Shown piece by piece: positions 45,126-61,501 of a stretch of 61,501 bases of DNA; positions within the stretch are counted from its first letter, which is position 1; each line of letters begins with the position of its first letter. The translations under genes and the position numbers were made by a program. The stretch comes from Lentisphaerae bacterium GWF2_49_21 (GTDB lineage Bacteria > Verrucomicrobiota > Lentisphaeria > Victivallales > GWF2-50-93): contig MHBH01000003.1 in NCBI GenBank assembly GCA_001804805.1, positions 29,555 through 91,055 of the forward strand, read 5' to 3'. The notes under the pieces are model-generated. The model had not been told where the DNA came from, did not search any database, and saw nothing but the letters and a program-made list of their open reading frames with translations.

Positions 45126-48100
45126 TCAGGGCTGTTCAGCGGAATTCTCTGATTTCCCGCCGCCGACTTCAACTTCTACGGTGTGATCCTGGTGGTCATC
45201 GACCAGATGGACCTGCAGATCATCCTGTGCTTTTGTGTCCACGAGAACGCTCCTTACAAGCCATGTCTCCGGTCCGCGGATATGGATTTTAATGTGATAG
45301 ACTGTTTCACGGAAACGATAATGTATGGTGCATTCCTTCCAGTCCGCCGGAAGCACCGGTTCAAAAGACAGCCTGTCAACTTCCAATTTCAGTCCGATAA
45401 GGCTTTCCACGAAGAAGCGGTACATCCATCCGGCGCTGCCCGTGTACCAGGTCCATCCGCCCCGGCCTTCATGCTGTTTGGCAGTATAAATGTCGGCGGA
45501 AACGACATATGGCTCGACCTTGTATTTTCCAATCTGCTTCTTTGTGCTGCCATGGTTGACGGGATTTATCATCCTTGCTATTTCCCAGGCGCGTTTCACG
45601 TCATGAAGTTTTGAGAATGCCATTCCAACCCAGACAGCAGCATGCGTGTATTGTCCGCCGTTCTCCCTGACGCCCGGGATATAGCCTTTGATATAGCCGG
45701 GGGAAGGATCAGACTTGTCGAAAGGAGGATCGAAGAGCTGGACAAGCCCAAGTTTCTGCCTGACCAGTTGTTTTTCCACTTCATCCATCGCCTGTCTGCT
45801 TCTTTCCGGATCCGCCGCACCGCTGAGAATGGCCCAGCTTTGCGGAATCGAGTCGATGCTGCATTCGGTATTTACATGCGAGCCAAGCGGGCTGCCATCG
45901 TCAAAATAGGCACGTTTATACCATTGTCCGTCCCATGCGTTCTTCTCAATATTTTCCTTCAAGGACGCTTTCATCAGCCGGCATTTTTCGGCAAACTCCA
46001 GATCATTGCGTCCTTGAGATATCTTCTCAAACTGCTGGAGTACGTCTATGAGGAAGAAAGCAAGCCAGACACTTTCGCCTTTGCCTTTGATGCCCACATG
46101 GTTCATACCGTCATTCCAGTCTCCGCATCCCATGAGAGGAAGACCGTGTTCGCCTATCCGGGACATGGCCAGTTCGATGGCGCGCACGCAGTGGTCATAA
46201 ACCGAAATCTGCTTATCCCCCTTATATGGCATGTCGTAGTATGATTCCTCATTTTCAGGGACTGGACGGCCGCTGAGCACAGAAGTTTTTTCATCGAGCA
46301 CTCCTGTATCGTTTGTAGCGTGGACATAATGACAGACCACGAACGGAAGCCACAGGTAGTCATCCGAAAAATGCGTGCGGATGCCACGGCCTGAAGGCGG
46401 ATGCCACCAATGCTGGACATCTCCTTCGCCAAACTGACGGCTGGAACAGAGAAGTATATGGCTCCTCAGCATGTCCGGCCTGCAATGGAGAAGCGACATG
46501 GAATCCTGCAGCTGGTCCCGGAAACCAAAGGCTCCTCCCGACTGGTAGAAACCGCTGCGTCCCCATATGCGGCAGGCTATCACCTGGTATAGCAGCCAGT
46601 TGTTTACGAGGAGGTTCAACGCTCTGTCCGGAGTCTCCACATTGATCGCGCCCAGGCAGTGCTTCCATGAATCCCAGACTTTTTCAAGATCCTGCCAGGC
46701 TCCGGCCCTGGAACTGTGCTTCTGTATGATGCTCCTCGCCTCCTCCTTGCTCTGAGCCCCGCCGAGCATAAAGACAACTTGCCTCTCCTGTCCTGGTGGA
46801 ATTGTCACATATGTTTGAATTGCCGCACAAGGATCAAGGGCGGGCCCTACCCTGTTGGAAAGCCTCTGTCTGAACATTGCAGCAGGACTTTCAAGGGAGC
46901 CGTTGCGTCCGATAAATTCCGTACGATCGCCGGTGAACGTACGTTCGGATTCGCTTGTCTGTACAAAAATTATCACGCTGGAAAACTCGGTATTGAATGA
47001 ATTGGTCAGGAAAATGGCGTTCGTCTGGGGATCGATCCTGCTGACCACGTGCATCGAGCTGCGCCCCTTCAATTCGCCGACTGCGCATTCAGCAAATGAA
47101 GTGACGGACACCTTCCGTTCACGGTCGGACAAGTTTCGAATCTTGATCAGGGCCAGCTTTACCGGAACGTCAACTGGAACATAGGCCAATGTCTCCGTGA
47201 AAATATCGTTCTGCCTGTGTTCGAAGGCCGAATAACCAAGGCCGTGACGGCATACATAGGAAGTCTTTCCGCGGGCGGGGCCTGGTGTCGGAGACCAGAA
47301 CGCCCCTGTCTGCTCGTCCCGCACATAGAATGCTTCGCCTGATGTTCCGCTTACCGGATCGTTATACCATGGAGTAATGCGGAACTGCCGTGCATTTTCA
47401 AACCATGTGTAGGCCGATCCTGTCTCGCATATCACGCTGCCGAAGCTGCTGTTGGCAAGGACATTCACCCATGGTGCCGGAGTCACCACGCCGGGGGCGA
47501 GGATGATCACATATTCACGTCCGTCCTGGGTGAAACCTCCGTATCCATTGAAAAAAACCAGATCAGTCCTTGTGATAGGAATGTCCTTCTCACCGGCAGG
47601 AGCCGTCCGTCTTGGAACGAAGAACGGCAATTTTGCTTCACTCCGGAATCTCCGTTCGACCTGTTCTGCAAATGTCCCGGCCCTGTCCGTCATATAGACA
47701 CGTGCCGCGGCCTGGAGGAGAAGCCGGTCCTCCTCGGGTATCTGATCCGTGGTACGGATGAAAATACCCCCTTTCTGATCAAGCATCTGCGCTTCCGAAT
47801 CAGCGGATATCATTCCAGTTATCTCGTCACGGAGGGGCTGACGGTATCCTGAGATCGTATCCACCCAGATGACGAGGTCGAAGCGGAGCCCCTTGTTGCG
47901 GCAGTATGCATAGCAGCGCACTGCCTGACTCACCAGATCGATCCCTGTTGAATCCATTGCATGGATGAGCATGATCGGCAGATCACCGGAAATGCCATAC
48001 CTCCACAGCAGGGACTGGTCCTTGTTGTTGTGGGAGATTATGCCGGCGCCGGCGCGGTGTCGTGCGTTTGCGTAAATGATCGAGCTTGCAAGGCGGCCGA

Positions 48101-51100
48101 ACAGCTGGGCATCGGCTTCCGTGGCCCGGAGATGCTGGAGAAGCACCTGGCTGTGGGTCCATGCGATGTCGAATACGCGTTCAGCAAGGCGATAATCACG
48201 GTATTTATCTATGAGAAGCAAAGCCTGTTCCTTGGTCGACGTGGCTCCCATTATAAGATCCACCATGACAGATTCCCCGGCAGGAACAACGATCCTGCGC
48301 CTTATGGACGCTATCGGCTCAAGCACCATGCCGGCCGTATTTGACAGCCTGCCGACGGCATCCATCGCAGCAGGATTCGATAGACTGCGGGTCCTCCCGA
48401 TAAATTTGTTGCGGTCGGTTTCAAACGAACAATCCTTGACCGGCTGTCCGTTGTGTACAACCATGCTTTTGAACATCCAGGGGACAATCTCCTGTTCTGA
48501 ACGCGGACGGCGTGTGCACAAGATGGCGGATTTGTCGTGAAGCAGTACCGTCTGTATGAAAAGGCTGTTGAATACGGGGTGCGACATATCTGCCAGCTCT
48601 TCAGAAAGAACTACTTCCGCGTAGCTGGTCAGGTCGAGTGTTCTTTCCGAAGACGAAAGATTGCGTATTGTCATGCGCCTTATTTCAATGTCATCCTCCG
48701 GAGAGACTGTTATCTTCGTGTAGGATTCAATATCATTGCTTATGCTGCGGAACTCGACCAGGGCCTGGGAGAATATGACTTCATAGCTGCGGGGACGGAT
48801 GCATGTCGGCTGATATGTGGTGGACCAGAATCCGCCTGATTCGGCATCCTGCACATAACAGTGCAACCCATAGCAGTCCCGCGTCACATCCTCCCTCCAG
48901 CGCACCAGGTCCATGCCCTGCCATCTGCTATATCCGCCGCCTGCGTTTGTCAGCATCACATTATATCGTCCATTGCTCAGCATCTGCACGCGCGGCACTT
49001 CAGAATCGGGATTTGTATAGACACGCGTTATTGATTCCTTGATCTGCGCATCTGTCTTGTTCGAAATTCCCGAATGGGGATGAGTGATGAGGGCGGATTC
49101 ATTGAGAACTGCAGGAATGCGCTCCTGGAGAAGAAGCAGAGATGATCTCATTTCGGGATCCAGTATGAAACGTCTCTGCATCGGCCTGTTGAGGAGCACA
49201 TGCGCCAGCGACAGCATGCTCATGCCGCTGTGGTGGGCCATATAGCTCCACACTACGGCCCTGTCCTGTCCGGCCGGTATGCGCATGGCCGTATAGTCCA
49301 CCGCCTCATACATGCCCATCCTGCCCAGAATCCCATCTTCTGCGAGACGTTGCAAATTAAGGCACGCCTCCACGGGCATGCAGATGAGCCCCATCACCGA
49401 TGCATATGGCGCTATTACCAGCTCTTCCGAAAGACCCCTCATAAGACCAAGTTCCGGAACACCGAATGCACGGTACTGGTATATCTTCTGTCCGTCGATC
49501 AGATTATATGACGATTCAGATATACCCCACGGGACCTGGCGCTTGTTCCCATATATGATCTGCTGTTTCACGGCGTTGCGGCAGGAGTAGTCTGTCAGAG
49601 TTCCTCCATATGTGGGCATAAGGAGGTTCGGCATCAGATACTCGAACATGGAACCGCTCCATGAAAGCAGGGAGGGAGGACCTGTCTCCACCTTGGCCTG
49701 CTGGCGTCCGAGAAGGAACCAGTGCTCCTGGGGCAGACGTCCCTGCGCCACTCCTATGAAACTGCAGAGCCTGGCTTCGGAAGCAAAAAGATCGTAATAG
49801 CTGTTGTCCATCTTGTGGCTGTCAATATTGAATCCGATGGATAGCAGTTTCCGGTCCGGCTGGAAAAGGAATTCCAAGTCCCAGTCCGACAGCTCCCTGC
49901 ACTCCTCGCCAAGCTGTTCAAGTTCACTGATCCAGTTGCTTGCGCAGATGCTGGATTCAGACAAGTCGGTCCGAAGGACATTGAACCATTTGAGCACTTC
50001 ATCGTCCTGGCTTGAACCGCCTTTGTCCATGGGAACATTCTTTATCCATCCGTCAATCCTCATTCCCCACTTCTGATTCAGGGACGCCATTTCGGAAAGA
50101 GTGCTGATCCGGTGCAGATCTGACAGCAGATCATTGAGCTCCGCCGGAGGAAGGATTTGGCTGGCTTTTTCAAATGCAGATCCGGAAAGGCAGTCGCCTT
50201 CAAGCCATGGAGCAATCTGGGCAATCTCTCCAAAGAGGTCTTCACATTGCGTCCTTAATGTCTTCAACCACCAGCGGACTTCGGCGTTTCCAATCAATTC
50301 CGTCTTCAACTGGGACTGTTTGGAAATAAGATCTTTCAGACCAAGATATATTTCATCCAGAGATCCTGCAGGCTTGGAATCCATGATGATTGTCCTGCAC
50401 AGGGATATTATCGCCTGAAGTGCGTCTCTTGCATCAGGGGTGGAATTGTCGGAACTGGCAAGGAGCGCCTCCTCTTCAAGCAGTCGGGCCGTGTCCTTCA
50501 TGCCTGCAAGCCATTGATCTGAAACTATGGGGGAAGTTTTAAGTTCAAGCAGGCCTCCGCGCAGTACAATGAGGGATCCGACCAGATTTCCACTGTCGAC
50601 CGTGGAGACATAACGTGGCTTCATGGCACGGAGGCTCTTGGTTTCATACCAGTTGAAAAAATGTCCTCGGAACATTTCCATCTGTCCCATCGATTTGAAA
50701 GTGCCCTGTATGCGCTTAATCAAATTGCTCGTACCTACATATCCGAAATCGCGGGCCGCAAGGGTCGAGAGAAGACACATGCCGATGTTTGTGGGCGAAG
50801 TCCTCCACGCGATCTGGAATTCAGGTTTTTCCTGAAGATTGTCAGGAGGCAGCCAGTTGTTCTCCGGCCCCACCAGCTCTTCAAAATATCTCCAGGTCCT
50901 CCTCGATATCCTGCGCAGGAATTCCTTCTGGTTCCCGTCGAGGCTTGCACGGACATTCCTCGCCGGCCGGCTGATGAACCAGGCGACAGCCGGCGCCAGT
51001 ATCCAGAGCGCCCCTAAAACCGTTGCAGCAACGAATGATGGACTTTCATCATGGAAAACAATGATGCAGCAGAAAATTCCTATGGCAGGATTGCTCCACA

Positions 51101-53945
51101 TCCGTTTCAATACTGATATGAAGCTGGTACCCGCCCGTCTCTCAGCGCTTCTTGCCGTCTGCCATTCAAGAAGATTGCGTCCGGTGAACATCCTCCTCCA
51201 GAACGCCTTGAGGATCGCATCTATGTTCATTGAAGTTTCAAAAGGCAGAAAGATGATCTGCAGGATCTCCTGGAACAGATGCCTCAACTGCAGGTCCAGG
51301 GTGTGCCGTACATGGTAGTCCCAGGCGACTTTGCCGGGTTTTATGCACAGTCCCCATATCGTCTGGATGAATATTGGAAGGAAAAAAATGGACAGCATGA
51401 CGGTGGTCCACAGGAAAATATCTTCAGGAAAGAATATGCAGACAATGAGGATCAGAAAAAATATTGCAGGCGAAACAAGGCTGCGCCGCAGATTGTCAAA
51501 GATCATCCATTTTGCCGTCAAAGACAAGCTGTTATGTATTATTCTGCCGGTTCCGTCGGGAACTGTCGGGAACAGCCATCTTATGATCTGCCAGTCCCCG
51601 CGTATCCAGCGGTTCCTGCGGCTTATGTCGACAAGATACTGAGAAGGATGATCCTCGATCAGGTCGACATCGTTGACACATCCGCATCTTGCATAAAGCC
51701 CTTCTATAAGGTCATGGCTGAGAATCGTATTTTCAGGGAACCTGTTGCCGACCGCCGCATCGAAAGCATCAACATCATATATCCCCTTTCCGAGAAAAGG
51801 CGTCGTTCCGATCATGTCCTGGTATATTTCGGAGATTTCATGCGTGTATGGATCGATCCCGACATCACCGGAAAAGAACTTGGAATATAATGATGTGGAG
51901 GCTCCAATAAGGCTCATTGATATCCTGGGCTGCATGATCCCGTAGCCCCTGGTCACGCATCCGGTCTGTGCATCGATCTTCGGACTGTTGAGCGGATGGG
52001 CCATCGCCCCCACGAGCTTCCAGGCTGCCGACGGCGGAAGCTGCGTATCCGAATCAAGGGTGATGACATATCGGACCTCCTTGAACAAATCCTGTTTTCC
52101 TCCGGAGACATTTATTATTCTTCCGGGTCTGCCGCGGATATACGAATTGAGGTCGTTGACCTTCCCCCTCTTCCTCTCGTATCCCATCCACTTCTGTTCG
52201 GACTCGTTCCATTCTCTTTTCCTGTGCAGCAGGAAGAAGACCTGGCTATCGCCTGCCGCATATCTCCTGTTCAGGGATTCGATGCCGTTCCTGGCGTAAT
52301 CCAGCAGGGCTCCGTCCTTCTCCATTGTTTCCTGGTTTGAATCGGTGAAATCCGTCACAAGCGTGAAGATCAAGCTGGGATCGCGGTTTGCAACGTAGCA
52401 TATTTCCAAGCCTGAAATCAGTTCATCGATCGATGAGGTCCTTGTGAGCATTGTCTGTACGGCCACAAGTGTTCTGCACCTGCCGGGAATCCCTTTCGAG
52501 AAATCCATCCGCGGCAATGAACGTGGAGATATCAGCGATGTTGTTATCCAGTTGACAATCGATATTGCTGATCTCGACGCCAGCATTATGACCAGGATTG
52601 AAATCAGCGCCAGGAAGACCTCCCTGTGAATGAGATCCGGCCATATTTCAAGTATTGCAGTTCCGGCAAGGACCAGCGACAGCATGGCCACCATTCCCAG
52701 ATAGAGGAGGAGCGGATTCCTGCCCAGGAGTTTTTTTACGGCTTCACGGACCAGGAACCGGGGACGGATGATGCTTTCAAGTTCAGGCCGCCCTTTATCC
52801 ACCAGGAAATAGCCGACGTGGGCCTCCCTGGGATCGGCTCCCTTGTTTTCCATCCTCTTCGTGGCAAGATTCACTGCTTCAGAGGCTATGCCCTCCTCCT
52901 TCATGCTGCTGTTCCGGGCAAGTTTCTCCACTACGTGGCGGTATGCGTCACGTGTCCGGAAATCCATCAGCCCGTAAATGCCGGAAGGATCCTTCCTGAG
53001 CTTTTTCTCCGTTATGCTCTGGTCTTCAATGAAAGGCTTCCAGTCGGTCTCGCCGAGAGCCCTCAGGCTTGTTATGCTGTTGCCTATGGACACCTGGTCT
53101 ATGGCCTGATCCTGGCTTTCAGCCTGCAGTATCTGCTCAATCGTCTGCCCGTCCTCTGAAAGCTGGCGTTCAAGCCAGTTGATCACAAGCCCCAGGGAAA
53201 GATGCTGCCCGTGTATGCGCATCGTAAGTTCGGCTATGAACGGATGCGAGAGCTTCGGGGACTCCCTCACAAAATCAGCCAGTTCCGTTATCACCACTTT
53301 GGAGTCCTTGCTTGCGGCCGCCAGAAATCTATCAGCCCAGTCTATTGCAGAATTACGATCAAACCGCCGAAGGGCTATACGGTGTGCTACTCGGCGCAGG
53401 TTCTCGATGAGGGCCATCCTGAGCATGATAGGCATCGCCCACAGCTCGCCAAGGGAAAGATTCTGGACAGTCTGGTACGTCCCTATGAAATGCGTAAGGT
53501 TACCAACATCGACCCTGCCATCGGTATGTGAGACAAGTTCAAACGCCAGGTCATAGACTCTTGGATATCCTTCATGCTTTCCCGTCTTCAGACGCGGAAG
53601 CTGCCTGCTGTATTTCCTCGAAAGATATTTGCCTGCGAGAAGAATCTGCTCTTCTATCACATAGTAGTTGTCCAGAAGCCACTCGGCCGCAGGAGCAAGC
53701 TGACGGTTGTTGTCGAGGGCCTCCGAAGCAATCCGGTGGGCCTCCCGTATCACCATCTTGTTTTCCGCGAGCCTGGAAAGAAGGAGTTCCCTGCCTGGAG
53801 CAGGATCAACCTCGTGCTCGCCGGCAAGCGCGCGTGCGAACTTCGCAAACTGGTCACGCCCGAACAGCTCCGCGCGCAGAGGCGCCTCCACTACGAGGCT
53901 GTAGACATCACTGAGGCCTGACATGGCTGGAATTTGGATCTTCAT
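45126..53945 (-). CDS. Cyclic beta-1,2-glucan synthase (NdvB/ChvB-like, GT84 plus GH94-type domains)
   Basis: A giant inner-membrane enzyme of about 2,939 residues, the usual size for ChvB/NdvB. The order is an N-terminal cytoplasmic region; transmembrane helices near residues 420-470; a GT84 glycosyltransferase domain with TLDSDTQLPPSAAW (near 635) and RRNRWIRGDWQIIRWLFP (near 785); more helices near 825-875 and 945-1010; a glycoamylase-like region; and two glycosyltransferase-36/GH94-type modules ending in MGCGDWNDGMNHVG (near 2,615). It should make, cyclise and trim osmoregulated beta-1,2-glucan. ATG at 53945 is used; TTG at 53963 with AGAGGA further upstream is an alternative. No ChvA exporter is seen. 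Confidence 0.9.
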   Translation of the reverse strand: MKIQIPAMSGLSDVYSLVVEAPLRAELFGRDQFAKFARALAGEHEVDPAPGRELLLSRLAENKMVIREAHRIASEALDNNRQLAPAAEWLLDNYYVIEEQILLAGKYLSRKYSRQLPRLKTGKHEGYPRVYDLAFELVSHTDGRVDVGNLTHFIGTYQTVQNLSLGELWAMPIMLRMALIENLRRVAHRIALRRFDRNSAIDWADRFLAAASKDSKVVITELADFVRESPKLSHPFIAELTMRIHGQHLSLGLVINWLERQLSEDGQTIEQILQAESQDQAIDQVSIGNSITSLRALGETDWKPFIEDQSITEKKLRKDPSGIYGLMDFRTRDAYRHVVEKLARNSSMKEEGIASEAVNLATKRMENKGADPREAHVGYFLVDKGRPELESIIRPRFLVREAVKKLLGRNPLLLYLGMVAMLSLVLAGTAILEIWPDLIHREVFLALISILVIMLASRSAISIVNWITTSLISPRSLPRMDFSKGIPGRCRTLVAVQTMLTRTSSIDELISGLEICYVANRDPSLIFTLVTDFTDSNQETMEKDGALLDYARNGIESLNRRYAAGDSQVFFLLHRKREWNESEQKWMGYERKRGKVNDLNSYIRGRPGRIINVSGGKQDLFKEVRYVITLDSDTQLPPSAAWKLVGAMAHPLNSPKIDAQTGCVTRGYGIMQPRISMSLIGASTSLYSKFFSGDVGIDPYTHEISEIYQDMIGTTPFLGKGIYDVDAFDAAVGNRFPENTILSHDLIEGLYARCGCVNDVDLIEDHPSQYLVDISRRNRWIRGDWQIIRWLFPTVPDGTGRIIHNSLSLTAKWMIFDNLRRSLVSPAIFFLILIVCIFFPEDIFLWTTVMLSIFFLPIFIQTIWGLCIKPGKVAWDYHVRHTLDLQLRHLFQEILQIIFLPFETSMNIDAILKAFWRRMFTGRNLLEWQTARSAERRAGTSFISVLKRMWSNPAIGIFCCIIVFHDESPSFVAATVLGALWILAPAVAWFISRPARNVRASLDGNQKEFLRRISRRTWRYFEELVGPENNWLPPDNLQEKPEFQIAWRTSPTNIGMCLLSTLAARDFGYVGTSNLIKRIQGTFKSMGQMEMFRGHFFNWYETKSLRAMKPRYVSTVDSGNLVGSLIVLRGGLLELKTSPIVSDQWLAGMKDTARLLEEEALLASSDNSTPDARDALQAIISLCRTIIMDSKPAGSLDEIYLGLKDLISKQSQLKTELIGNAEVRWWLKTLRTQCEDLFGEIAQIAPWLEGDCLSGSAFEKASQILPPAELNDLLSDLHRISTLSEMASLNQKWGMRIDGWIKNVPMDKGGSSQDDEVLKWFNVLRTDLSESSICASNWISELEQLGEECRELSDWDLEFLFQPDRKLLSIGFNIDSHKMDNSYYDLFASEARLCSFIGVAQGRLPQEHWFLLGRQQAKVETGPPSLLSWSGSMFEYLMPNLLMPTYGGTLTDYSCRNAVKQQIIYGNKRQVPWGISESSYNLIDGQKIYQYRAFGVPELGLMRGLSEELVIAPYASVMGLICMPVEACLNLQRLAEDGILGRMGMYEAVDYTAMRIPAGQDRAVVWSYMAHHSGMSMLSLAHVLLNRPMQRRFILDPEMRSSLLLLQERIPAVLNESALITHPHSGISNKTDAQIKESITRVYTNPDSEVPRVQMLSNGRYNVMLTNAGGGYSRWQGMDLVRWREDVTRDCYGLHCYVQDAESGGFWSTTYQPTCIRPRSYEVIFSQALVEFRSISNDIESYTKITVSPEDDIEIRRMTIRNLSSSERTLDLTSYAEVVLSEELADMSHPVFNSLFIQTVLLHDKSAILCTRRPRSEQEIVPWMFKSMVVHNGQPVKDCSFETDRNKFIGRTRSLSNPAAMDAVGRLSNTAGMVLEPIASIRRRIVVPAGESVMVDLIMGATSTKEQALLLIDKYRDYRLAERVFDIAWTHSQVLLQHLRATEADAQLFGRLASSIIYANARHRAGAGIISHNNKDQSLLWRYGISGDLPIMLIHAMDSTGIDLVSQAVRCYAYCRNKGLRFDLVIWVDTISGYRQPLRDEITGMISADSEAQMLDQKGGIFIRTTDQIPEEDRLLLQAAARVYMTDRAGTFAEQVERRFRSEAKLPFFVPRRTAPAGEKDIPITRTDLVFFNGYGGFTQDGREYVIILAPGVVTPAPWVNVLANSSFGSVICETGSAYTWFENARQFRITPWYNDPVSGTSGEAFYVRDEQTGAFWSPTPGPARGKTSYVCRHGLGYSAFEHRQNDIFTETLAYVPVDVPVKLALIKIRNLSDRERKVSVTSFAECAVGELKGRSSMHVVSRIDPQTNAIFLTNSFNTEFSSVIIFVQTSESERTFTGDRTEFIGRNGSLESPAAMFRQRLSNRVGPALDPCAAIQTYVTIPPGQERQVVFMLGGAQSKEEARSIIQKHSSRAGAWQDLEKVWDSWKHCLGAINVETPDRALNLLVNNWLLYQVIACRIWGRSGFYQSGGAFGFRDQLQDSMSLLHCRPDMLRSHILLCSSRQFGEGDVQHWWHPPSGRGIRTHFSDDYLWLPFVVCHYVHATNDTGVLDEKTSVLSGRPVPENEESYYDMPYKGDKQISVYDHCVRAIELAMSRIGEHGLPLMGCGDWNDGMNHVGIKGKGESVWLAFFLIDVLQQFEKISQGRNDLEFAEKCRLMKASLKENIEKNAWDGQWYKRAYFDDGSPLGSHVNTECSIDSIPQSWAILSGAADPERSRQAMDEVEKQLVRQKLGLVQLFDPPFDKSDPSPGYIKGYIPGVRENGGQYTHAAVWVGMAFSKLHDVKRAWEIARMINPVNHGSTKKQIGKYKVEPYVVSADIYTAKQHEGRGGWTWYTGSAGWMYRFFVESLIGLKLEVDRLSFEPVLPADWKECTIHYRFRETVYHIKIHIRGPETWLVRSVLVDTKAQDDLQVHLVDDHQDHTVEVEVGGGKSENSAEQP

Positions 53946-54039
53946 ATCTACAGTATATTCCAAAATTTACAGAATTCCTCTAGAGAATAGCTGTTTTATA
54001 ATTCATACTGCAGGATTGCTGCACTAAAAAACTTCAAGC

Positions 54040-56792: not shown

Positions 56793-57182
56793 TTATTTTC
56801 CATAATCAGCCAGAGGAGATCTTCTTTTTCTCACGATGATCTTGTTCCTGCAGTCCATTACTAATATCTTAGGAGACATTTTCCCTGCCTCCTTCTCAGT
56901 ATATACTCCAAAGGACATTATTGTAATTATATTACCCGGACTTGCACGGTGGGCTGATGCACCATTGACCTTGAAGGATTTGCTTCCATCCTTTCCTGGT
57001 ATGGCATAAATTTCAAGCCTCTTCCCATTGGTATCGTTCACACGAGCATCTCCTCGTAAGGATATATGCCAGCCTTCTTCATTATGTCGGTATTTATCTC
57101 AAGGCTACCATCGTAATCAAGAATACTCTCTGCTACTCTTGCTCTGCGTATCTAGCTCTTACACATTATCAGATTCATCATA
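56793..57182 (-). pseudogene. panD: Aspartate 1-decarboxylase, inactivated by a stop codon and a frameshift
   Basis: PanD makes beta-alanine for coenzyme A. From ATG at 57182 the frame reads MMNLIMCKS, then TAG (57153-57155) where the family has Lys, then IRRARVAESILDYDGSLEIN with the Gly-Ser self-cleavage site, up to YPYEEMLV. There the frame shifts near 57041 (GTGTGAAC instead of GTGGTGAAC, one G lost) and continues VNDTNGKRLEIYAIPGKDGS to KSFKVNGASAHRASPGN and the FGVYTEKEA motif. Two independent lesions in an otherwise well preserved gene point to recent decay. The fragment from GTG 57041 cannot be an active enzyme because it lacks the cleavage site. Confidence 0.8.
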
Positions 57183-57207: not shown

Positions 57208-59022
57208 TCAGTAATAGTACCAAATAGACTCATAGTCACTTGTCTTCTCCCCGTCTCTTTCAAGTCTCTTTAGATAATCATATATTGAAACATCGGTGTA
57301 AAGATAATCATCCGCAATCCTAAGCCTCTCCTCCCACGGATAAAACCTGTAGATCCTCCTGCCATTCTGAAGAATCATGAGCGGTTCATGGTCCTGCCAG
57401 GCCCTGAGATGTGATTTGCCGAGCCTTGGGACATTGAACACCGGTTCGTCAAGCCTTTCAATTCCGGGAAGCAGCCTCGCTTCCTCTTTCCTCTCCTGCT
57501 CAATGCGTGCGATTGGAACCCTGAAATCGGCTGTTTCCTCCTTGCCCTTCGTATTAAAGGTGTAATAAGGATCAATACCGCAGAGCTTGAGCGTTTTTCT
57601 CAGAAAGCAAGTCTCATATCTCCTGCTGTTGTAATAGGTGAACACCTGCTGGTTATATATGTTCATGCCAAGTGATTTGATCTTTTTCACGGCAGACATC
57701 ACGTCTGGGGTTATCTCTGTTGGTGACTCGACATGTGTCACCAGGCATATCTCCCTTTTGCCCCATTCATGGAAACGGGACATTGTTTCAAGGAAGGGAT
57801 AATTTATCCTGAACGGCAGGGTTACTAACGTTCTTGTTCCAATCCTTATCCTCTTTATATGCTTCATCTCCGACAACTGGGCAATTATCCAGTGCAGGTT
57901 TCCGCTTGATAGCGTGAGAGGATCCCCTCCGGTGATAAGGACTTCCGTTATGTTCCTGTTGTTCTTGAGCCAGTTCAGCGCTTTCTTCAGCATCTTCCCT
58001 GTAACTTGGCCCCGGGCAAGATCCTTGATTTCCCAATTCCTCTGGCAGTAGACGCAGATCTGAGGACATGAGTTGAAGGGCTTAAGTATCGCAACCTGAG
58101 GATACCTCCGGGTAACACATGCGACAGGGCTTGTGGAAGCTTCTCCCATATAGTCAAGGCTCTCGCCTGATATCCTCTTGGAGGCAACGCAATCACAGTA
58201 ATATTCCGTCGGCAGCACCTGCGCCCTGATGGCCCGATCAAAACTGCATCTCCCTTCACGGTTGAACAAGGACAGGGAGTATGGGGTAATCTGCACTGGT
58301 ATCCTAAATTTTTCAGCGGCAAGAAGCCCGTCCATTTCATCCTTGTCCAGGGAAGTCAGCCTGGAAATAATCCTATGGTCATTTATTACATTCTTGAGCT
58401 GCCAGACAGGATTCATCCAATCCGCCTCCGAAGCTCTGAAAAAGTCAAGTATTTCTTCCTTGTTCTGTTCCCTCCTGGATATCAGGTTCGCATCCAATCC
58501 CGTCTTAAATTTTTTAAAAGACCCGAAAAGAGATGCGGAATACTTGTCCAATTCCCTTGAACGAGTAATAGCCGCATGGGCATCTTCTTTCAATGACAGC
58601 ATGCACGAACATTTGGAAAGCATGTTTGATTTCCCCTGGATTCCTCTGAAGAGGTAGATGAACTCCAACAGGAAGCCTTCGCTTACATCCTCAAGACCAT
58701 CCTTTTGATTTCTTGCAATTGCACATAGCTTCGAAAGTGCTGAAAATCCGGCAAGCTTCTCATTTTCCGTCCTGATAATATTTTTCAAGACTCTTATGCA
58801 TTCCTTTGCAATATGCTTTTCAGCTATGTGTATATCCTTGAACCTTTCCGTGGAATATATGTTGAAATAATGCCTTTCAAGATCGTTAAGGTACTTAAAG
58901 AAAGAATCCCTGGCTTCATGAAGAGAAGAGGAAGATTCAAGTATCTCTCTTGCTTCCGGGCATGATTGCCAAAGTTCTTCGGATAAATCTTTTAAGCTGA
59001 AAGAAATGAGCTCTTTTTTCAT
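57208..59022 (-). CDS. KamA-family radical SAM protein (lysine 2,3-aminomutase-like) with long N-terminal extension
   Basis: A 604-residue protein. Residues 1-270 are a helical region not found in classical lysine 2,3-aminomutase. Then come LKPFNSCPQICVYCQRNWEI (cluster motif C-x3-C-x2-C), ITEVLITGGDPLTLSSGNLHWI, IGTRTLVTLPFRI, the KamA signature GMNIYNQQVFTYYNSRR and a C-terminal segment VPRLGKSHLRAW whose Lys may bind PLP. Aminomutases of this family make beta-lysine or beta-glutamate; the substrate here is unknown. ATG at 59022 follows AGGAGA. It lies 28 bases after a small membrane protein gene and 25 before the panD relic. Confidence 0.8.
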   Translation of the reverse strand: MKKELISFSLKDLSEELWQSCPEAREILESSSSLHEARDSFFKYLNDLERHYFNIYSTERFKDIHIAEKHIAKECIRVLKNIIRTENEKLAGFSALSKLCAIARNQKDGLEDVSEGFLLEFIYLFRGIQGKSNMLSKCSCMLSLKEDAHAAITRSRELDKYSASLFGSFKKFKTGLDANLISRREQNKEEILDFFRASEADWMNPVWQLKNVINDHRIISRLTSLDKDEMDGLLAAEKFRIPVQITPYSLSLFNREGRCSFDRAIRAQVLPTEYYCDCVASKRISGESLDYMGEASTSPVACVTRRYPQVAILKPFNSCPQICVYCQRNWEIKDLARGQVTGKMLKKALNWLKNNRNITEVLITGGDPLTLSSGNLHWIIAQLSEMKHIKRIRIGTRTLVTLPFRINYPFLETMSRFHEWGKREICLVTHVESPTEITPDVMSAVKKIKSLGMNIYNQQVFTYYNSRRYETCFLRKTLKLCGIDPYYTFNTKGKEETADFRVPIARIEQERKEEARLLPGIERLDEPVFNVPRLGKSHLRAWQDHEPLMILQNGRRIYRFYPWEERLRIADDYLYTDVSIYDYLKRLERDGEKTSDYESIWYYY

Positions 59023-59050: not shown

Positions 59051-59377
59051 TCAGAATCTGGACTTGACTGCAACAACCACAATCAGGACATTCAGGTAGA
59101 CCACTGATGCTGTCATCGCATACTTTTTCCAGTCATCCATTGTGGCGGGACCTGAATCGTCAGCCTTGTGTCCGGCGTAAAATCTGATGTCGACATATCT
59201 GATAATTATAACTGTTGCCGCAACAATTATGTATGCAGACCCGTAAAGGATCAAATCGCCTGTTTTTGCGATCATGACTACTGAAGCTAGAAGTATTATG
59301 TTTCCCAAAAGCATCCAGTAAAGCCTGAGAAGACATCCGGAACTGTTTTCAGAAGAGGGTGCGTTTTCGGTTTTCAT
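59051..59377 (-). CDS. Small membrane protein with three helices, unknown function
   Basis: A 108-residue protein: a polar start (KTENAPSSENSSG), helix LYWMLLGNIILLASVVMIA, helix YGSAYIIVAATVIIIRYVDIRF, a loop ADDSGPATMDDWKKYAM, and a third helix. The RYxDIRF...GPATMDDWxxYA pattern looks family-specific, but I cannot name a family with confidence. The ribosome site GGAGGCGG is strong. It is transcribed from its own promoter with a structured leader (59384-59489), and the promoter, leader and first codons are duplicated at 61085-61219. KamA follows in the same transcript. Confidence 0.65.
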   Translation of the reverse strand: MKTENAPSSENSSGCLLRLYWMLLGNIILLASVVMIAKTGDLILYGSAYIIVAATVIIIRYVDIRFYAGHKADDSGPATMDDWKKYAMTASVVYLNVLIVVVAVKSRF

Positions 59378-59383
59378 AACCGC

Positions 59384-59489
59384 CTCCAGTAATTTTTGAT
59401 TTACTGGATGGCGGCCCGACCATCCAAAAGCCTGTATCGGCACACCGACACACCCAAGGCACGATAAATGCCTGTAAAATCAATGTCAA
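59384..59489 (-). promoter_or_regulatory. Promoter and structured leader RNA of the small membrane protein gene, copy 1
   Basis: On the minus strand TTGACA (59489-59484), a 17-base spacer and TATCGT (59466-59461) precede a leader of about 75 bases. It can form TCGG-TGTG-CCGA, then GGATGG-TCGGGCCG-CCATCC, then CCAGTAA-(8 nt)-TTACTGG directly before the ribosome site GGAGG. The first two hairpins and the linker ACAGGCTTTT are conserved in copy 2. It has the form of a cis-regulatory RNA, but matches no riboswitch class I know. Confidence 0.5.
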
Positions 59490-59506
59490 GCAAAAATAAA
59501 TTAATA

Positions 59507-60301
59507 TTAATATTTAGACGGAACCTTTATAGTCATTCCAACTTTCAAATCGTCTGGCTCCTTTATGGAATTTAATCTTACGAGTTTATCGGTAGAAGTA
59601 AAGTAAAGACGGGCAATCTTGCTCAATGTGTCGTCCTTCTTCACAGTATAAACCTCGTATACACCCGCTACTGATGTATTATAGTCCGGGATATGGGATT
59701 CAAGCTGTTGAGTTTCCACAATGACACTGGTTTCTGCAAGTGAATCATCTGAATCCTTCGGCTTTGCAGGCAACAACAGTACCTGTCCGATTTTAATAAT
59801 ATCATCTTCTATGTTGTTTCCCATGCGCAGTTCAGCTACGGATGTTCCTGTCTTATGGGATATCTTTAAAAGATTGTCCCCTTCGGCAACGATATATGTT
59901 TTAAAAGCCTCACTTTCCATCTTTAGCTTGCCGCTCTTCACAGTAGCTTCTGGAAGGGGATGCGGATCAATCTCCTCCAATTCTGGGATAATGCCATCAT
60001 CTTCAGCTAATTCCCCTGATGTCTGAAGATTTTCCTCTTGAACGACATCAGAAGGTTCAGCAGCCGGCTTTTCTCTTTCATCCTGAATTGGAATTTTAAC
60101 ATCATCATTCTCAGAATTATCCTTTATCTGCAAATCTCCTTTTTTTTCGGTCTCTCCACCCCCGGGACTCAACCGCCAGACATTAAACCACCCAAAGAGT
60201 GTAATAATTACCATATGGGCAACTGCAACAATCAAAAGTATTGCGAGTATCTTGTCTGGTGTTCCTAGCCAGTCGTTTGATTTATTTTTAGGATTATTCA
60301 T
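59507..60301 (-). CDS. Membrane-anchored protein with two LysM domains (paralogue 1)
   Basis: A 264-residue protein with the same plan as 54194-54955: transmembrane helix KILAILLIVAVAHMVIITLFGWF, an acidic linker (60-130), LysM one (YIVAEGDNLLKISHKTGTSVAELRMGN) and LysM two (YTVKKDDTLSKIARLYFTSTDKL). The first 45 residues (KNKSN.W.GT..KI..I.LIVA) and the LysM parts align well, the linkers poorly. AAGGAG precedes the ATG. It lies downstream of the EF-hand lipoprotein gene and an inverted repeat. Confidence 0.85.
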   Translation of the reverse strand: MNNPKNKSNDWLGTPDKILAILLIVAVAHMVIITLFGWFNVWRLSPGGGETEKKGDLQIKDNSENDDVKIPIQDEREKPAAEPSDVVQEENLQTSGELAEDDGIIPELEEIDPHPLPEATVKSGKLKMESEAFKTYIVAEGDNLLKISHKTGTSVAELRMGNNIEDDIIKIGQVLLLPAKPKDSDDSLAETSVIVETQQLESHIPDYNTSVAGVYEVYTVKKDDTLSKIARLYFTSTDKLVRLNSIKEPDDLKVGMTIKVPSKY

Positions 60302-60407
60302 TAGGATTTACTCCTTACGGGATACTATCTTTAGAAATTACAGGTCGCGTTTCAGATTCATCCATCCGCCAAAAAATCACTGAGTCTCGGCAACCTTAAG
60401 ATTAAGG

Positions 60408-60490
60408 TTCAAGGTGGCGACGGCAATACACGCCTCGCGTAAAAGAGAGAACAAACGCATCGACGGGAATCTGTCCACCGCCACCTTGAA
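60408..60490 (-). terminator. Inverted repeat between EF-hand lipoprotein and LysM genes
   Basis: TTCAAGGTGGCG (60408-60419) and CGCCACCTTGAA (60479-60490) are perfect complements around a 59-base loop; a smaller palindrome CCTTAAGATTAAGG adjoins it at 60394-60407. It starts ten bases beyond the lipoprotein stop. It could be a terminator/attenuator or an interspersed element; no T-run follows. Confidence 0.45.
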
Positions 60491-60500
60491 AAACCTCATA

Positions 60501-60818
60501 TTATTTCTTTACTGCTGGAGGAACGGAGGGAACCACGGGAGCAATAACAGTAAATTCATCAACTTCTATGATTCCATTGGCATTTTTGTCAGCTTTCTTG
60601 GCATCTGCTTCATTAAGATTATATGCTGCCATATATTCAACAACGGCAACTTTTCCATCTTTGTCAGTATCAGCTTTTGTGATCTCTGCAGCTTTAGCTG
60701 AATCAACCTTTGCTGCTGGTTCGGCAACCTTTGCTGCTGGAGTTGTAGAATTATCAGCCTTATCACAGCCGACAATAACAAATCCCATAGCAATAACAAA
60801 AACCATTAATTTCTTCAT
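60501..60818 (-). CDS. EF-hand lipoprotein
   Basis: A 105-residue predicted lipoprotein: signal KKLMVFVIAMGFVIVGC with a lipobox, an Ala/Lys/Val-rich linker with the repeated word PAAKV, then two calcium-binding loops, DTDKDGKVAVVE and DKNANGIIEVDE, each with the D-x-[DN]-x-[DN]-G pattern, and a Pro/Val-rich tail. It probably binds calcium in the periplasm. ATG at 60818 follows GGAGA. Function beyond calcium binding is unknown. Confidence 0.75.
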   Translation of the reverse strand: MKKLMVFVIAMGFVIVGCDKADNSTTPAAKVAEPAAKVDSAKAAEITKADTDKDGKVAVVEYMAAYNLNEADAKKADKNANGIIEVDEFTVIAPVVPSVPPAVKK

Positions 60819-60974
60819 TTGATAAATCTCCAATTCGTTTTGATTAAAATTATGAATCAATAAAATAATTTAATTCTTCAAGACACCTCCTTTTCCTTCT
60901 GTTATGTATTAAACGTGTGGCATGTATTTATCGCTTTAACATTGGCTGATTCAAAATGTTCAGGAGCGAATCAT

Positions 60975-61106
60975 TTAGAAGCAAGTCTTGATTGATTCAT
61001 CGACATGATCAGTTCCGAGGATGAATAGTTTTGCATGACAGCCCGGCAGGTTCTGAAAAGACAATCTGGATAATTTTTCAGAAGAGAGTGTATTCTCGAC
61101 ATTCAT
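60975..61106 (-). pseudogene. Decayed second copy of the small membrane protein gene
   Basis: From ATG at 61106 the frame reads MNVENTLSSEKLSRLSF; the other gene starts MKTENAPSSENSSGCLL. After about 15 codons similarity ends, no transmembrane helices follow, and a stop comes after 43 codons. The promoter and leader in front of it are better preserved than the coding part. It is best read as a relic of a tandem duplication; a short expressed peptide cannot be excluded. Confidence 0.55.
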
Positions 61107-61219
61107 AACCGCCTCCAGAAATTCTTAATTCTACGGGATGGCGGCCCGACCATCCAAAAGCCTGTATCGACATACCGACACACCCAAGACAGTTTAAAAC
61201 ATATTTAAAATATTGTCAA
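61107..61219 (-). promoter_or_regulatory. Promoter and structured leader RNA, copy 2
   Basis: TTGACA (61219-61214), a 17-base spacer and TAAACT (61196-61191) precede a leader that matches 59384-59466 at most positions, including GGATGGTCGGGCCGCCATCC without change. In the first hairpin the loop changes TGTG to TATG and one pair changes G-C to G-U, so pairing is kept. The hairpin next to the ribosome site is not kept. The promoter spacer sequences differ strongly between copies, while the leader is conserved. Confidence 0.5.
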
Positions 61220-61266: not shown

Positions 61267-61501
61267 TCAAATCTGTAGCGCGCGTTCTGTCGAGATCCGT
61301 AGCGATATCCATTTTTCAAGACCGGCAAGGGCGTATATCATAACCCCCACGCATATAATCCTGATCCATGATTCAAAGGGAATCGGAGCGGACTGGAAGA
61401 ATCGGTTCATGGCCGGGAAATACGTGAAAAACAGCTGCGCAATTATCATGGCTGAAACTCCGGCAATCAGCCAGCGGTTCGAGAAAACACCGACGGAAAA
61501 C
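61267..61501 (-). CDS. P-type cation-transporting ATPase, C-terminal end (truncated by window edge)
   Basis: The minus-strand frame is open to the right edge. The visible 77 residues, with SNRWLIAGVSAMIIAQLFFTYFP, the loop AMNRFFQSAPIPFESWIRI and the helix CVGVMIYALAGLEKWIS, match the last two to three helices of the cation-ATPase C-terminal domain (Ca2+ or H+/Na+-type, P2/P3). The ion cannot be told from this part. It ends about 50 bases before the copy-2 promoter. Confidence 0.75.
   Translation of the reverse strand, partial: FSVGVFSNRWLIAGVSAMIIAQLFFTYFPAMNRFFQSAPIPFESWIRIICVGVMIYALAGLEKWISLRISTERALQI

Follow-up and report, generated by a model that had tools for sequence, protein, structure and literature searches.

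Two nhaA-I leaders and their genes

The window, by which we mean the whole 61,501-nucleotide stretch of Lentisphaerae bacterium GWF2_49_21 DNA that was analyzed, carries two copies of a short leader RNA on its minus strand. Copy 1 (59406 to 59455) precedes the genes of a 108-aa small membrane protein (59054 to 59377) and a KamA-family radical SAM aminomutase (57208 to 59022), and copy 2 (61136 to 61185) precedes a decayed remnant of the small-membrane-protein gene (60974 to 61105), all on the minus strand. Directly upstream of copy 2 lies the C-terminal end of a P-type cation ATPase (61267 to 61501, minus strand), which is cut by the contig end.

An Rfam scan of the whole window matched both leaders to RF03057, the nhaA-I motif, at 59455-59406 with 50.8 bits (E 4.1e-7) for copy 1 and at 61185-61136 with 48.8 bits (E 1.3e-6) for copy 2. 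The gathering score of the family is 37, and both copies align to the full model (positions 1-55 of 55). Both aptamers have the GGGUG start, the CAGG linker (ACAGG in copy 1) between P1 and P2, and the CGGGCC loop of P2, which is present in all 52 nhaA-I loci that we examined. The scan reported no further Rfam family in the window, and the two copies are exactly the nhaA-I members of the whole genome. Because the nhaA-I motif has been validated as the Li+-I riboswitch (White et al. 2022, PMC9646797), both leaders belong to a known riboswitch class. The DUF1646 motif, which is the Na+-I riboswitch, was also considered, and its aptamer model gave no match.

The preliminary description of this DNA had proposed a new, undescribed class of structured leader after weighing GEMM, yybP-ykoY, fluoride and mini-ykkC, a list that did not include nhaA-I. 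Much of what it reported is borne out: there are two minus-strand copies, whose RF03057 matches are far beyond chance, the motifs that it quoted occur in both leaders, and the long hairpin at the ribosome site is real, as is the replacement of a G-C by a G-U pair in P1, with a change on one strand only (GUCGG/CCGAU against GUCGG/UCGAU). It had also named the lack of covarying homologues as evidence against its RNA; we found 52 loci carrying the motif, with compensatory changes in the P2 stem. However, since the cores of both copies match RF03057 at full length and well above the gathering score, as do dozens of homologues, the RNA is of a known class and the headline claim falls, leaving a new class with a negligible probability.

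A sigma-70-like site with 10 of 12 consensus matches stands directly 5' of each aptamer, which agrees with the promoters described earlier: TTGACA-17 nt-TATCGT for copy 1 (59461 to 59489, minus strand) and TTGACA-17 nt-TAAACT for copy 2 (61191 to 61219, minus strand). These are the best 2 of 12 sites found, where shuffled sequences led us to expect 5.8. In both copies the predicted transcription start coincides approximately with the aptamer's first G (about 59454-59455 in copy 1), and transcription would accordingly begin at the aptamer's 5' end.

The small membrane protein and its operon

Copy 1 is predicted to control a two-gene unit, in which the small protein, predicted to have three helices (model confidence, 78), comes first and the aminomutase second. 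The same gene order is found in a genome of the same genus (G001). No Pfam or NCBIfam model matches the small protein, the PDB holds no relative of it by sequence or by fold, and the search of plasmids gave no match. The second gene product scored 281 bits with TIGR00238, above the cut-off, but only 213.8 bits with TIGR04368, below the cut-off of 650; its next-best specific model is that of glutamate 2,3-aminomutase. It is probably an enzyme making a beta-amino-acid osmolyte.

Two other features stand in this neighborhood. A fragment of aspartate decarboxylase (PanD; 56793 to 57041, minus strand) that covers only profile positions 48-114 separates the aminomutase gene from an asparagine synthase-like gene, and G001 has a similar short open reading frame. 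Close to the riboswitch operon, a 2945-aa GH94/glycoamylase protein resembling cyclic beta-glucan synthases (45126 to 53963, minus strand) is possibly another osmoadaptation gene.

P2 and the ribosome site are paired in mutually exclusive predicted folds

In the minimum-free-energy fold of copy 1 (z of -3.9), P2 is not formed. Its 3' strand, contained in CCGCC-A-UCCAGUAA, instead pairs with UUACUGGAGGCGG through 13 pairs with one bulged A (59383 to 59418, minus strand), and this pairing hides the GGAGG ribosome site inside UUACUGGAGGCGG while competing with P2. The third hairpin that had been noticed at the ribosome site of copy 1 is therefore real, and the fold adds that it excludes P2, a mutual exclusion absent from the preliminary description. 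In copy 2 the corresponding platform (61112 to 61148, minus strand) is weakened, with the CCGCC-A-UCC/GGAGGCGG pairing retained and the outer part mispaired; its energy is -13.7 kcal/mol versus -21.3 kcal/mol in copy 1.

This arrangement recurs among 18 leaders that precede the same small-protein family, copy 2 included. Of the 18 leader folds, 17 pair the P2 3' strand with the ribosome-site zone, and the pairing of each P2 strand with its own ribosome site had a mean energy of -16.3 kcal/mol versus -13.2 kcal/mol (standard deviation, 0.63) when partners were swapped, with none of 5000 permutations as good. Removal of close relatives left 14 leaders and the same result (-16.8 versus -13.5 kcal/mol; 0 of 5000 permutations). 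The paired site itself varies, being the start codon in L016 and a GGAUGG version of the ribosome site in L017 and L018, which indicates that the details of the platform change between relatives while its logic stays. No terminator-like site was found in either window leader, and a terminator-type platform was rejected.

Because the minimum-free-energy fold of copy 1 pairs the P2 strand with the ribosome site, the third hairpin can be read as the OFF state of a translational switch. In the absence of ligand, the P2 3' strand and the bases following it would pair with the Shine-Dalgarno sequence and keep translation off; a bound alkali cation would stabilize P2 and its CGGGCC loop, freeing the ribosome site and allowing translation. 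It is the re-pairing of the P2 3' strand with the Shine-Dalgarno sequence that leads us to expect this direction, in which ligand binding should release translation. As far as computed folds can tell, the platform would thus act on access to the ribosome site.

The aptamer of copy 2 is kept beside a decayed gene

Comparison of the two copies shows that only 2 of the 50 aptamer bases differ (96% identity), whereas identity falls to 57% in the 60 bases on the upstream side and to 64% in the opening 120 bases of the reading frame. If the flanks are assumed to change at 0.30 or 0.25 changes per base, the probability of no more than 2 changes in 50 bases is about 4e-6 or about 9e-5, respectively. 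The remnant downstream of copy 2 runs for 43 codons before a stop, compared with 108 in copy 1, and the protein search found no second intact copy of the small protein in the genome. Thus, the earlier statement that the core was kept while the coding part of copy 2 decayed holds. Copy 2 is a duplicate whose reading frame has decayed and whose aptamer would have either stayed under selection or been homogenized.

We also considered that the duplication is simply young, too recent for an unconstrained aptamer to have diverged. The two aptamers do resemble each other more closely (96%) than either resembles its same-genus orthologue (82%), and only one nhaA-I copy is present in the genome of that relative. 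However, the low identity of the flanks implies that time has passed since the duplication, and the flanks of copy 1 are closer to those of the same-genus species (79% and 76%) than to those of copy 2, which makes a young duplication improbable. Recent gene conversion of the aptamer core alone may be another explanation of the similarity.

An independent parallel to copy 2 occurs in Kiritimatiellae, where an intact nhaA-I leader (L061; G456:C294) is followed by a small-protein remnant of about 12 codons and then by TRAP transporter genes, so that here too the target has decayed and the switch is kept. It seems that the riboswitch can persist after the small protein is lost and may then serve the following gene, which for copy 2 would perhaps be an EF-hand lipoprotein gene lying about 155 bases beyond. 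Between the EF-hand gene and a LysM gene there is also a strong hairpin (60390 to 60505, minus strand; -42.4 kcal/mol, z of -4.1, 0 of 200 shuffles as good), which is present as a single copy in the genome and has no Rfam match.

The riboswitch and the small protein occur together across genomes

The association of the leader with the small protein was examined from the protein side. Among 388 genomes of the window's phylum, 11 small-protein loci were found and nhaA-I lay directly upstream in all 11; the search made no reference to the RNA, but its profile had been built from nhaA-I-linked members and favors close ones. Two of these loci, in G205 and G443, are outside the search profile. When named genomes were scanned, 8 loci emerged from Verrucomicrobia, Kiritimatiellae, Lentisphaerae and Thermogutta, with RF03057 above threshold in 8 of 8. 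The 382 genomes of Planctomycetota contained 21 small-protein loci. When 20 of these were scanned at the Rfam gathering threshold, nhaA-I was upstream in 12, including 11 of the 12 best-scoring ones, and absent upstream of the remaining, distant homologues. Conversely, 11 of the 19 nhaA-I loci in the sample of the window's phylum precede the small protein. These observations suggest that the small protein acts as a dedicated nhaA-I partner in Verrucomicrobiota, Kiritimatiellae, Lentisphaerae and Planctomycetes.

Several leaders depart from this arrangement. In G004, an aptamer of 50.2 bits (L014:4959-5008) has no intact sense gene downstream and is apparently an orphan. L020 and L022 are divergent nhaA-I members that begin with GGGUU, contain a CAGUCGGGCCGCUG hairpin and precede a 119-aa protein common to two genomes. 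A further pair (L099/L107; G622:C34) consists of two aptamers separated by about 190 bases in front of a CitMHS_2 transporter, resembling the tandem arrangements mentioned for Li+-I riboswitches (PMC9646797).

Partner genes and the ion that is sensed

The two leaders of the window are not upstream of nhaA, while their homologues precede genes for NhaA, NhaD, Na_H_antiport_3 and others. Downstream of the small protein we found OadG, identified in several genomes either by model or by frame, along with trehalose synthase and phosphatase, V-type ATP synthase, an SSF symporter, a Na_H_Exchanger, and antiporters of the CitMHS_2 and NhaD types. The remaining nhaA-I loci among the 19 in the phylum sample are upstream of NhaD, trehalose synthase and an octopine-type dehydrogenase, among others. 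In Planctomycetota the motif also precedes NhaA (one copy), three Na_H_antiport_3 genes, CitMHS_2, a KamA-family aminomutase and a glucosyl-3-phosphoglycerate synthase-like (GpgS) protein, and SDF is among the genes near these loci; several of the Planctomycetota assignments do not reach the strict NCBIfam equivalog cut-offs. Even those small-protein homologues without the riboswitch adjoin Na_H_antiport_3, CitMHS_2 and GpgS-like genes.

Na+-I riboswitches, which are a different class, control the aminomutase genes ablA (lysine) and eam (glutamate), together with genes for ATP synthase, KefB and osmoprotectants (PMC9337991). The resemblance of the partner genes to that regulon points to sodium and osmotic stress. 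No functional model covers the small protein, and the role proposed for it, which is taken from its neighbors, is most likely that of an accessory to sodium extrusion or to salt adaptation.

The ligand itself is harder to assign. U precedes the CGGGCC loop in 52 of 52 aptamers (L007 and L092 were anchored by eye), and if this base corresponds to position 54 of the D. propionicus construct, it is of the Li+ type and differs from the C found in Na+-II (PMC9646797). U is the common nhaA-I base where the Na+-sensing variant has C, and when it was put into the Na+ variant, the response broadened to Li+, Na+ and NH4+ (PMC9646797); this broadened response makes U compatible with Na+ sensing. On the side of the genes, the similarity of the NhaA, NhaD, OadG, V-ATPase, trehalose, glucosylglycerate and aminomutase partners to the Na+-I regulon suggests that Na+ may be the ligand. 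The intracellular ligand would be Na+ or Li+; gene content favors Na+, to which we give odds at or just short of even.

A plain Li+-I riboswitch would instead answer toxic lithium, and the small protein and its neighbors would provide a defense against Li+ like that of NhaA in Proteobacteria. Experiments have shown Li+ selectivity of the class in several Proteobacteria, the loop base agrees with the usual nhaA-I form (PMC9646797) without exception in the aptamers examined, and one Planctomycete copy precedes NhaA itself. The trehalose, glucosylglycerate and aminomutase genes, OadG, the V-type ATPase and the sodium symporters, however, fit Na+ or salt stress and not the toxicity of trace Li+, and the gene set as a whole matches the Na+-I regulon (PMC9337991); we regard a pure lithium switch as a serious contender that falls short of an even chance. 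Our own tentative proposal, which we hold with slightly less than even confidence, is that the Verrucomicrobiota-Planctomycetota nhaA-I is a Na+ (salt-stress) sensor despite its apparently Li+-type base and that its target is an undescribed three-helix protein family aiding sodium extrusion. With the choice between Na+ and Li+ left to either ion, we may conclude with a probability of roughly 0.87 that these leaders are translational nhaA-I switches with the small protein as dedicated partner and a regulon of Na+ export and osmoprotection.

Comparison with known systems

The distribution in the PVC group, the dedicated small protein, the ribosome-site design of the switch and the conflict over its ligand appear to be new. 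The tight pairing of switch and protein gives a first functional clue, to sodium or salt stress, for an undescribed membrane protein, and the osmolyte and sodium-pump neighbors yield a sharp, testable prediction about the ion sensed by nhaA-I outside Proteobacteria.

The leaders resemble nhaA-I/Li+-I (RF03057, PMC9646797) in the GGGUG start, P1, the CAGG linker, P2 with its CGGGCC loop, the leader position and the presumed control of ribosome access. The main text of PMC9646797 places Li+-I in Alpha-, Beta-, Gamma- and Deltaproteobacteria, mostly before nhaA; PVC bacteria are absent from that text, and the commonest partner here is the small membrane protein. Na+-II, the rare nhaA-I variants of Deltaproteobacteria (PMC9646797), shares the aptamer architecture and has downstream genes of unknown function, but uses terminator platforms and carries C at position 54, whereas no terminator was found in the window leaders and their loop-closing base, which may be the counterpart of position 54, is U. 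In regulon, finally, the closest likeness is to Na+-I (DUF1646 motif, PMC9337991), with its Na+/H+ antiporters, OadG, ATP synthase and osmolyte-making aminomutases, although Na+-I is a different aptamer class and the window copies match RF03057 only.
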